Positions 3,745 to 6,562 of a DNA stretch of 11,116 bases are shown one piece after another. The first letter of the stretch is position 1. Each line of letters begins with the position of its first letter. Under the pieces are notes generated by a model. That model was not told where the DNA came from, ran no database searches, and worked only from the letters and a program-made list of their open reading frames with translations. The stretch is taken from the NCBI GenBank assembly GCA_946614685.1, contig CAMOHF010000012.1, positions 1 to 11,116 of the forward strand. Reading direction: 5' to 3'. A program made the translations under genes and the position numbers. This DNA comes from an uncultured Clostridia bacterium (GTDB taxonomy: Bacteria; Bacillota; Clostridia; Lachnospirales; Lachnospiraceae).

Positions 3745-4617
3745 ATGCACAGCTATTTAAGAGCCATCGGTTTTTCAAAATATAAGAGCAGAAGACAGCT
3801 TGAGCCCGTATACAAAAGCTGTCTTCGTGAACCCAGTCGCAAAGAGGTAACCACCATCAGTGTGGATACCTCTATGCTTCAGTTTGAGAAAGATTTTGAC
3901 AAGAATCTCGGAATCTCTCTGGTGGGAGAAGTGGATGCGGCAGGAGCCTGTTCCATCGAGCACTACTTCCCCTACTACAAGGGTCGGTACTTTATGGAGT
4001 TCGAGGGCATCAGTATCGAGAAGCAGACGGACAAGGAGTCCTATGCCGGTGTCTGTGAGGATTTAAGACTCGGGATGACCATCATCTTCTATGTGGTCAA
4101 TATCGCCGACTACGCAAAGTCCAAGTGGTTTAACTATTCCAACCGCGGTATGACGCGCGTGAAGCTTTCCGGTCTTTCCACAGAGGGTACCGTACTGCTT
4201 GGCACCAAAAAGCCGAGCGGGCGAAACGCAGGGCCGGACCTTTCTGCACCCTTCTTCGCACCTCCCGGGATGGGGGATCTCGAGGATCCGCAGGAGTACC
4301 ACGACCCCATCAACCACGAGTACGGACGATATGAACTGCTTACCACCAGGGCCTGCAGGGAAGACCTGCTGACGATCGTGGAAACCAGCTTTATGCCTTG
4401 CGGTGTGGAGTGTGACCACTATTTGGTGGTGGGAAACATCCTCGAAGTTCGGGAGATGAAGAATTCTTTCACGGAAGAAAAGATATACAATCTTTTGATA
4501 GAAGCAAATTATCTGACGATCGATGTCGTCATCAATCAGGAGGATCTGATGGGCGAGCCTGAGGTCGGACGCCGTTTCCGCGGCGAGATCTGGCTGCAGG
4601 GTGTCGTGCAGATCTAA
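3745..4617 (+). CDS. DUF3881 family protein of unknown function
   Basis: A 290-residue soluble protein with no signal peptide or transmembrane helix. It begins HSYLRAIGFSK (residues 2-12), the hallmark N-terminus of DUF3881 proteins, which I know from Lachnospiraceae. It has a mixed composition with aromatic and acidic patches, for example HYFPYY (73-78), a hydrophobic strand MTIIFYVVNIADY (111-123), a Gly/Pro-rich loop around 160-182 and EIWLQGVVQI at the end. No catalytic motif is evident and the biochemical function is unknown. The ATG follows the serS TAA with no gap (TAAATG), so it probably depends on translational coupling; the only upstream purine runs, AAGGA (3724-3728) and GGAAG (3735-3739), lie within the serS coding end. 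It is the last plus-strand gene before the convergent junction. Confidence 0.85.
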   Translation: MHSYLRAIGFSKYKSRRQLEPVYKSCLREPSRKEVTTISVDTSMLQFEKDFDKNLGISLVGEVDAAGACSIEHYFPYYKGRYFMEFEGISIEKQTDKESYAGVCEDLRLGMTIIFYVVNIADYAKSKWFNYSNRGMTRVKLSGLSTEGTVLLGTKKPSGRNAGPDLSAPFFAPPGMGDLEDPQEYHDPINHEYGRYELLTTRACREDLLTIVETSFMPCGVECDHYLVVGNILEVREMKNSFTEEKIYNLLIEANYLTIDVVINQEDLMGEPEVGRRFRGEIWLQGVVQI

Positions 4618-4632
4618 ACCAAATAAGAATTA

Positions 4633-4937
4633 TGTATCGCTGACGGAGACGCGCACACGGAAAGCCCTGTGTGAGAGCTCCGGAAGACAAAGTTACTAAG
4701 TATCCCGGTGACAAAGTCGAAAAGGGTGCCTGACTCCCCAATGGGGGTCCGGCACCCTTTTCGGCTTTTGTTGCATCCACCGTACGCAACCGGCGCAGGT
4801 TTGCCATCCATGGCAAATCAGCGCCTGCTTCGACATCCATGTCTCAGCTTGCTGAGTCTCACGGGATACAAGTAACTTTAAGTCTTCCTTCGCAAATTCA
4901 CACAGTGCTCCCCGTGTGCGCGTCTCCTGTTTGTCGA
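4633..4937. repeat. Long imperfect foldback element (about 300 bases), possible structured RNA
   Basis: The two ends pair in order across more than 200 bases. Bases 4645-4660 with 4912-4927 are perfect over 16 bp. Then 4667-4674 pairs with 4898-4905 (8 bp), 4682-4688 with 4882-4888 (7 bp), 4689-4697 with 4871-4879 (9 bp) and 4700-4707 with 4862-4869 (8 bp). A TATCG/CGATA pair lies at the outer edges. The segments are separated by small internal loops, so each arm is about 70 bases. The central part holds a strong GC hairpin (4718-4763), a small GTTGC/GCAAC hairpin (4770-4790), a TTTGCCAT/ATGGCAAA hairpin (4800-4817) flanked by GGCGC/GCGCC (4792-4796 with 4821-4825), and CTCAG/CTGAG (4843-4856). 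No convincing gene is present. Colinear arms with internal loops suit either a structured RNA or a MITE-like inverted repeat. I do not recognise a named family. Confidence 0.75.
4718..4769. terminator. Bidirectional intrinsic-terminator-like hairpin
   Basis: A perfect 13-bp stem pairs CGAAAAGGGTGCC (4718-4730) with GGCACCCTTTTCG (4751-4763). It continues inward through CCCC (4736-4739) pairing with GGGG (4743-4746) over an AAT loop. A-runs and T-runs form the lower stem, and CTTTTG follows at 4765-4770. Read on the minus strand, the stem is followed by ACTTTG. It lies 100 bases after the DUF3881 stop and about 380 bases after the end of the glucosidase gene, so it can end both converging transcripts. 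It sits in the loop of the larger foldback. Confidence 0.75.
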
Positions 4938-4960: not shown

Positions 4961-5121
4961 CCCAAAGAACAGGAAGGATGTGGCTGCGTTGCCAGGACAA
5001 CGTGGAGCCGCCGGCGCTTAGCGAGGTTCTTTCGAGCTTAGCGTCCGCTGCGTGCGGAACTTAGCGCAAGCGTGTCCAGGCAACACAGTCGGCATCCTTC
5101 CGTCTGTGTTTCTTGGTTGGG
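4961..5121. repeat. Second long foldback element with three CTTAGCG copies, candidate ncRNA or dispersed repeat
   Basis: Bases 4972-4980 (GGAAGGATG) pair perfectly with 5093-5101. Directly inside, 4981-4999 pairs with 5073-5091 at 17 of 19 positions including two G-U pairs. Outside, 4965-4971 pairs with 5107-5114 with one bulge, and CCCA (4961-4964) pairs with TGGG (5118-5121). The result is an almost continuous stem of about 40 bp. The enclosed 73 bases are GC-rich and contain CTTAGCG three times (5017-5023, 5037-5043, 5060-5066), a CGCTT/AAGCG pairing (5015-5019 with 5068-5072) and a TCCGC/GCGGA hairpin (5044-5048 with 5054-5058). A TTTT at 5122-5125 follows the stem on the plus strand. I recall similar CTTAGCG-rich intergenic segments in Lachnospiraceae but cannot name a family. 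Bases 4938-4960 and 5122-5143 on either side show nothing further. Confidence 0.7.
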
Positions 5122-5143
5122 TTTTATCGGAGTGTCTAACGCC

Positions 5144-6562
5144 TTAGTCAGTCAGATCCTCTCCGTTGGTTGCGATCACCTTCTTATACCAGTAGAAGGA
5201 ATCCTTGCGGTAGCGCTTCATATCCTTAAGTTCGAACTCGTCGCGGTTCACGTAGATGAAGCCGTATCGTTTCACGATGCCTTCGTGCGTGGATACGAGA
5301 TCGATAGCAGACCAGGGGCAGTAGCCCATCATTTCGCAGCCTTCTTCGGCTGCAATCTTCAGCTGCTCAATGTGTTTTCTCAGATATTCGATACGATAGT
5401 TATCGTGAATCTTTCCGTCTTCGGTAAGCGTGTCGTATGCCCCGAGCCCGTTCTCTGTGATGATCATCGGAAGGTGATAACGGCTGTAGATCTCGCGGAT
5501 GGTTGCACGGAAACCGTCGGGATCGATCTCCCATCCGAATTCCGTACGAAGGAGGTTGGGATTGGGGAAGGCCTTGTAGACACCCTTCTCGGTAGCACCG
5601 GACTGCTGATCTACCTTACCGGATGATGTATCTTCGCTTCCATCGTCCCACTCCACGGTGGAGGTATTGTAATAGTTGAATCCGATGAAATCGGGTTTTG
5701 CGGCTTTCATGATTTCCATATCGCCGTCTTCGATTTCGGGGATGGCGTCATGTTCTTCCAAGAATTTCCAGACAAGATTGTTGTAGATTCCGTATACAGC
5801 CATATCCAGGTAAAGCCAGTTCCGGATGGCGTTGAAGTTCTGTGCGGCCAGATTATCCTTGGGCTTGCAGCTTGCGGGATAGATCAGGGAGATGTTGGGT
5901 GCGGGACCGATCTTGGCACCGGGGAGCATCTCGTGGCAGAGCTTCATGACCTTGGCCTGCGCCAAGAGCATGTGGTGATTGTCCTGATAGAGTTTCTTCA
6001 CCTTGTTGGTGACGCCGGTGAAATCAGAGGTTCCGATGGCTTCTCCGACCAGGGTGAGCATATTCTGTTCGTTGATGGTGAGCCAGTACTTTACGCGGCT
6101 GCCGTAGTTTTCAAAGAGGATCCGCGCAAAGTTTACAAAGTCATCCACAATGTCACGCCTGCTCCAGCCACCCATCTTTTCAAGCGCGTCGGGTAGGTCA
6201 AAGTGGAACATGGTGACAAGCGGTTCGATGTTGTACTTGAGGCAGGTATCGATCACGTTGCTGTAGAAGTCGATGCCTTCCTGATTGATCTCGCCTCTGC
6301 CGGTGGGAAGGATTCTGGTCCATGCGATGGAGAAGCGGAAGGTCTTGAATCCCATCTCCGCCATCAGAGCGATGTCTTCTTCGTAGTGATTGTAGAAATC
6401 GGCGCAGACTTCGAAACCGCTGGTGCCTTCGGGTACCTGCTTGGTATCCTGAACGCTCGGTCCTTTGCCGTGTGTTAAGCTTTCTCCTTCAACCTGGTAT
6501 GCACTTGTTGATGCACCCCAGAGAAAATCCTTGGGAAGGGGTTTGTGTTTTGTAATGACCAT
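5144..6562 (-). CDS. GH1 6-phospho-beta-glucosidase
   Basis: A 472-residue glycoside hydrolase family 1 enzyme of full length. The N-terminal FLWGASTSAYQVEG (13-26) contains the sugar-binding Gln Q23. H120 lies in the MFHFDLP strand, the acid/base E165 in TINEQN (162-167) and the nucleophile E370 in ITENG (368-372). WSAIDLVSTHEGIVKRYGF (417-435) has S424, K431 and Y433 at the S-x6-K-x-Y spacing that binds the 6-phosphate in LacG and BglA type enzymes. This makes a phosphorylated disaccharide or glycoside the likely substrate, with glucose-6-phosphate as product. A 6-phospho-galactosidase activity cannot be fully excluded. There is no signal peptide, so it is cytoplasmic. The start follows AGGAGG 5-6 bases upstream. 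It lies 25 bases after the ROK kinase gene, which probably supplies its substrate. Confidence 0.93.
   Translation of the reverse strand: MVITKHKPLPKDFLWGASTSAYQVEGESLTHGKGPSVQDTKQVPEGTSGFEVCADFYNHYEEDIALMAEMGFKTFRFSIAWTRILPTGRGEINQEGIDFYSNVIDTCLKYNIEPLVTMFHFDLPDALEKMGGWSRRDIVDDFVNFARILFENYGSRVKYWLTINEQNMLTLVGEAIGTSDFTGVTNKVKKLYQDNHHMLLAQAKVMKLCHEMLPGAKIGPAPNISLIYPASCKPKDNLAAQNFNAIRNWLYLDMAVYGIYNNLVWKFLEEHDAIPEIEDGDMEIMKAAKPDFIGFNYYNTSTVEWDDGSEDTSSGKVDQQSGATEKGVYKAFPNPNLLRTEFGWEIDPDGFRATIREIYSRYHLPMIITENGLGAYDTLTEDGKIHDNYRIEYLRKHIEQLKIAAEEGCEMMGYCPWSAIDLVSTHEGIVKRYGFIYVNRDEFELKDMKRYRKDSFYWYKKVIATNGEDLTD

Follow-up and report, generated by a model that had tools for sequence, protein, structure and literature searches.

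We consider it probable that positions 4961 to 5121 of the window, by which we mean the whole stretch of 11,116 nucleotides analysed here, hold one copy of a REP/MITE-like, non-coding, dispersed and probably mobile DNA element of new architecture, which would act as a folded strand or cruciform. The window corresponds to contig C12 in a genome assembly of 1.39 Mb, which is 64% complete and comprises 251 contigs. The cores of the element are near-identical at unrelated sites with different flanks, and they are enclosed by long outer arms whose sequence varies between copies.

The original prediction of a strongly structured element was borne out by folding. The minimum free energy of 4961-5121 is −77.4 kcal/mol (z = −4.6) on the plus strand and −69.2 kcal/mol (z = −4.8) on the minus strand, and 0 of 200 shuffles folded as stably on either strand. 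Inverted repeats and the pairs listed for the fold define the outer arm P1, with a left side at 4972-4999, whose sequence is specific to this copy, and a right side at 5073-5101 (both on the plus strand). P1 contains the predicted perfect block of 9 bp, in which GGAAGGATG at 4972-4980 pairs with CATCCTTCC at 5093-5101, and an inverted-repeat block of 16 nt (4984-4999 and 5073-5088) that is 88% complementary. Interruptions occur in the outermost pairs, between 4961-4971 and 5107-5121, and it is uncertain how far the copy extends outwards. The covariance model R1 matches the plus strand at 4969-5096, the window copy itself being one of the 48 model sequences; the element as a whole (4961-5121) is given without a strand.

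Three copies of CTTAGCG are located at 5017, 5037 and 5060, with the spacings of 20 and 23 nt that had been reported. A fourth is found outside the element, at 2703 on the minus strand; the expectation for the whole window is 0.84 copies, and four were reached by 3 of 200 shuffles. The description of the three as one repeated loop motif holds in part. The first two (5017-5023 and 5037-5043) share a role as the sides of the core hairpin P2/P3 (5009-5052, plus strand), which is defined by alignment A1, its consensus fold and the listed pairs, but the third (5060-5066) is CTTA joined to a GCAA mini-hairpin, and other aligned copies keep only AGCG there. This GNRA-type mini-hairpin, AGC-GCAA-GCG, lies at 5063-5072 (plus strand) and includes part of the third CTTAGCG. 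It belongs to the consensus structure, in which it is helix 4 of A1, whereas folds of the single sequence pair these bases elsewhere.

The DUF3881 gene on the plus strand ends at 4617 and the GH1 gene on the minus strand ends at 5144, so that the window copy sits between convergent genes; no host function is ascribed to it. Genes for ParA, ParB, DUF4446 and SerS lie further upstream, and those for ROK and ArgS downstream. An open reading frame of 184 amino acids (5072-5626, plus strand) overlaps the copy and is antisense to GH1; it was not accepted as a gene, and the copy is intergenic, as had been claimed. Rfam likewise returned no match overlapping 4961-5121, either at the gathering score or at E ≤ 10, in agreement with the earlier statement that no RNA family fits, and 20 further element loci gave 6S and tRNA matches only.

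Other features adjoin the copy. A TwoAYGGAY RNA (Rfam, 60.3 bits) occupies 4756-4891 on the minus strand. At the orthologous locus L062 of G027, the closest relative found to the window genome, an inverted copy of a hairpin module of ~80 nt is placed within a TwoAYGGAY loop, and the TwoAYGGAY match is below the gathering score. A distant inverted repeat, identified by eye, flanks the TwoAYGGAY region (GGAGACGCGCACACGG at 4645-4660 and CCGTGTGCGCGTCTCC at 4913-4928) and may be either the outer TwoAYGGAY stem or another palindromic element. A strong 26-nt inverted repeat at 4713-4768, 88% complementary and terminator-like, is also present between the convergent genes.

One reading offered at the outset, that of a dispersed palindromic element, agrees with the distribution of copies and with sites that are empty in one species and filled in another (see below). 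The source genome holds ten strong copies including that of the window, several located where contigs end. The doubled CTTAGCG pattern is found at 12 places in this genome, compared to 0 for a reversed control. Of 61 relatives searched with blastn, 23 gave matches, all of these within the genus group. Scanning the species genome collection with a pattern gave at least 120 stretches, and the matches listed are mostly from Lachnospiraceae records. The covariance model that had been proposed was built, and in ten carrier genomes it detected between 11 and 48 copies per genome (48, 47, 41, 22, 20, 19, 18, 18, 15 and 11). In a sample of the order it matched at least 70 of 294 genomes and 36 of 144 genera, all of one family, counts that are lower bounds, as 11 candidates were scored per genome. 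In a phylum sample 5 of 348 genomes matched, four from the same family and the fifth (G657) from another class. In the latter, nine copies with a variant core (L293-L302) are present, their arms again differing between copies, and the position of this genome in another class suggests transfer or great age. A phage or plasmid origin was considered and rejected: viral contigs searched with one pattern gave 0 matches, and plasmid and phage searches, each with one copy as the query, gave none. A single-copy sequence and an Rfam match had been named beforehand as the outcomes that would speak against the prediction; both were looked for, and neither was found.

In order to obtain alignment A1, 117 pattern matches with enough flank were filtered with a regular expression for the mini-hairpin, which 48 passed; A1 consists of 47 of these together with the window copy, the divergent L177 being left out. 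Since the central hairpin and AGCGNRAGCG are prescribed by the pattern and the regular expression, the conservation of these parts in A1 is partly imposed, and only changes within the letters allowed by the pattern are taken as evidence. The consensus fold is a three-way junction formed by the long outer arm P1, the stem P2/P3 and the mini-hairpin AGC-GNRA-GCG. Stem P2/P3 terminates in CTTAGCGAGG..CGAGCTTAG. As read from the sequence, this terminal hairpin has a T.T mismatch where its two CTTAG halves pair, and tandem G.A mismatches where CGAG stands opposite CGAG. The compensatory changes for which a search had been suggested are abundant, with double changes in 18 of 27 predicted pairs. With a structure of 30 pairs, 90.1% of the alignment cells are paired, compared to 73.4% for shuffles. 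Its covariation score of 0.442 exceeds both the 0.149 obtained with shuffles and the values for the slid structure, which do not rise above 0.116. Helix 4 shows 5 double changes, 0 uncompensated changes and 100% of cells paired.

Such values would ordinarily point to structured non-coding RNAs or UTR elements, such as mRNA stabilisers or a small RNA, that spread by duplication and are selected for their RNA fold. The strong covariation, the stable folding of either strand and the GNRA-type loop with its compensatory changes are in line with this explanation. Selection on an RNA fold is expected to tolerate G-U more than A-C. Over all sets, however, we counted 106 G-T and 118 A-C. Of these, 28 and 30, respectively, come from the 24 core pairs of A1 that are unconstrained (a chosen subset of 14 core pairs alone gives 3 and 7), and 34 and 41 from the outer arms, counted in 45 of 48 copies after arms shorter than 14 had been dropped. 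Alignment A2 is largely independent; 3 of the 48 A1 rows have a central 50-mer in common with it. The core pairs of A2 gave 16 and 23, and 44 further arms gave 28 and 24. For this second arm count, 46 of 57 model matches were taken: orthologous pairs were represented by one member each, and a tandem twin as well as short or weak matches were omitted. Of the 46, 44 passed the same length limit. In contrast, the acceptor stems of tRNAs from the same loci showed 8 G-T versus 0 A-C, in a small control of 12 of 18 distinct tRNAs.

There are two exceptions, the core pair of columns 32-111 (6 G-T versus 0 A-C) and a set of short related hairpins (4 versus 0), and wobble may be tolerated at these positions. 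The short hairpins, CTT-NNN-GAGG..CGA-NNN-TAG, correspond to the terminal hairpin alone and occur between genes, often in tandem, for example in L075, L091, L104, L113, L116, L171, L180, L184 and others. In 160 distinct ones, the variable positions comprise 474 Watson-Crick, 4 G-T and 0 A-C cells.

The orientation relative to co-directional genes is also without strand bias (11 versus 13), with 6 copies in convergent and 3 in divergent contexts; greedy open reading frames served as gene calls, by which 11 of 48 elements lay inside a called frame and 4 had no call. It furthermore has to be taken into account that template switching can make and mend stems and, according to PMC8794818, can yield double changes of the Watson-Crick type in RNA genes as well, which weakens the inference drawn from the type of covariation. 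With G-T no commoner than A-C, the pairing looks, as far as sequences can tell, constrained at the level of DNA and not of RNA. The proposal of selection on RNA structure is therefore unsupported despite the strong covariation. An RNA family is unlikely also in view of the missing Rfam match and of the replacement of both arms between species at fixed loci, which is described below.

The outer arms, which exceed 60 bp in some copies, pair specifically within their own copy. Own arms gave a mean of −53.7 kcal/mol, compared to −22.4 kcal/mol when arms were swapped between copies, and own-arm pairing was below the first percentile of swaps in 34 of 55 copies; these 55 were separated from 62 others by a separate regular expression, under which some full elements fell into the short class. 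The interior varies in another manner. A module of ~78 nt consisting of three small hairpins is found at the same place in several copies (L005, L006, L010, L062, L069 and L070), equivalent to 5057-5060 of the window (no strand assigned), as located by aligning the window copy L001 with its orthologue L062. At this locus the module is present in G027 and absent from the source genome, G000, whereas the reverse is seen for L006 of G000, which has it, and L071 of G027, which does not.

G061 and G096, two related species, have nine element sites in common among the loci fetched. Eight orthologous pairs were compared together and the ninth, L246/L277, separately. At two of the nine sites, L266/L273 and L269/L279, both arms have been replaced jointly: between the species the arms are 53-67% alike, the cores 93-100% and the flanks 91-97%. 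The arms at these two sites pair within each species (22/25, 23/25, 18/20 and 25/28) and hardly at all across species. At L262/L272 the arms have changed and pairing is lost in one species, and six sites, L246/L277 among them, show little arm change. Single arm changes comprise 11 G-T, 10 A-C and 20 others, alongside 2 double Watson-Crick changes; these one-sided changes look neutral, as expected of unselected decay. The possibility that the new arm was copied from elsewhere in the G096 genome was discarded, as no source was found there within 3 mismatches other than its own two arms.

Five sites of G061 and G096 are without a listed partner. At three of them, copies in G061 face empty sites in G096, with inserts of ~160, 180 and 280 nt by their coordinates and flank matches of 88-98%. 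Of the remaining two, one is a G096 copy whose counterpart in G061 is weaker, and the other was located through a single flank only. Inspection by eye showed no target-site duplication at the three empty sites, whose junctions are not clean. At one empty site there is a small hairpin with a stem identical to the base of the arm in the filled copy, which is compatible with insertion into a hairpin or with incomplete deletion. In the source genome, the first flank search gave four matches at three places; since two contigs end near the element, those matches decide nothing. One of them corresponds to a difference of 2.8 kb, where two divergent copies bound a stretch of G027 (L064, 969-3797) that carries a gene for a 753-aa repeat protein, and where G000 (L222) has 143 nt.

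Empty sites may reflect the deletion of old copies. They could in this way be reconciled with old, inert palindromes that are no longer mobile and whose complementarity is kept only by template switching during replication, a process that can create and mend stems according to PMC8794818. That 7 of the 9 orthologous arms are without joint replacement, and that changes are mostly one-sided, would also be consistent with inertness. Near-identical cores, large copy numbers and divergent pairs nevertheless require a spreading process in the past, and template switching alone does not explain a conserved core. We regard this explanation as very improbable and infer that the element is mobile at present.

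REPs and REPINs are the closest known kind of sequence. REPs are hairpins of 20-40 bp, and RAYTs, the REP-associated tyrosine transposases, are Y1 HUH enzymes. The element resembles REPs and REPINs in being dispersed and intergenic, in its imperfect stems and in its frequent arrangement as inverted dimers, which characterizes REPINs: among the matches listed, 21 of 24 distinct pairs less than 1500 nt apart are divergent (p = 2e-10), and pairs at least 1500 nt apart are mixed (9 ++, 6 −+, 4 +− and 2 −−). It differs in its length of ~110-280 nt, several times that of a REP, in its three-way junction and in arms that vary from copy to copy. In place of a short palindrome of 20-40 bp, the covariance model has 127 positions plus arms. 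Stem bases resembling GTAG/CGTC, namely CA[GCC...GGC]GTCC and GTA[GCC...GGC], are found in some copies and are absent from many others. Among the topics treated in PMC3733652 are head-head or inverted REP dimers with tagged ends, families of the CGTC type without a known or dedicated transposase, and some REP families set within longer palindromes.

A REP or REPIN in the strict sense, moved by a RAYT, would account for dispersed palindromes, mismatch-bearing hairpins and inverted dimers, and the literature just mentioned shows that a dedicated transposase is not a constant companion of such families. We searched 61 relatives and 13 carriers for PF01797, the domain of IS200/IS605 and REP-associated transposases. 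It was present in 5 of the 13 carriers and without a match in the other 8, including G027 (48 copies) and G326 (41 copies). Within the genus set it was not enriched in carriers, with 3 of 23 element-positive versus 5 of 14 element-negative genomes. Moreover, no match of the model was located beside a Y1 gene in the 16 loci fetched of 38. A RAYT as the mobiliser found no support in these searches, and the strict REP explanation is in our view distinctly improbable. ORF clustering over 90 loci revealed no recurring neighbour gene, the largest cluster covering 7 of 90. Two further candidates were set aside as well. A conserved 5′ leader, an extra AT-rich stretch at filled sites, showed weak k-mer similarity and is unproven (one leader motif, chosen after looking, occurred in 4 of 24 upstream and 0 of 24 downstream regions), and a conserved end tag is present in some copies only.

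With MITEs the element shares its non-coding nature, multiple copies, long inverted arms and the occurrence of filled and empty sites between related genomes. It deviates from them in that the copies have no terminal sequence in common, the outer arms being different, no target-site duplication was seen at three sites, and no parent transposon was found among the neighbours of 90 loci. The pneumococcal BOX elements are modular repeats, and the element, compared by description only, is modular too, its ~78-nt internal module being variably present. The attC site of integrons may serve as an analogy for a structured single-stranded DNA site. A literature search, whose scope ended short of the supplements of PMC8040213, found no paper on this repeat family. 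That paper describes palindromic candidate structured RNAs in human microbiomes, and the family may be among the numbered candidates in its supplements.

For the dispersed, REP/MITE-like DNA element that we favour, a possible course of events can be outlined. A protein with affinity for folded single-stranded DNA, a form of the strand that is probably exposed at replication, would recognise the core hairpins. New intergenic copies would be generated by this protein or by replication enzymes of the host. The arms would be made or remade as near-perfect inverted repeats through templated synthesis, either by template switching or by fold-back copying, and would then decay through ordinary mutation. 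A more far-reaching version is possible, and we put it forward tentatively, as we consider it rather unlikely: the element might represent a new class of mobile single-stranded DNA elements, a three-way-junction hairpin moved by an enzyme other than a Y1 HUH enzyme, which rewrites its own arms and so surrounds a constant core with a private, near-perfect palindrome.

The repeat family is present in tens of copies per genome and spans numerous genera of a bacterial family that is a major one in gut and rumen. It also provides a cautionary case: covariation of this kind would usually lead to classification as a structured RNA, yet the wobble test makes it look like DNA-level constraint or repair. 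The joint replacement of arms at fixed loci offers a natural setting in which to watch palindromes being made and renewed.
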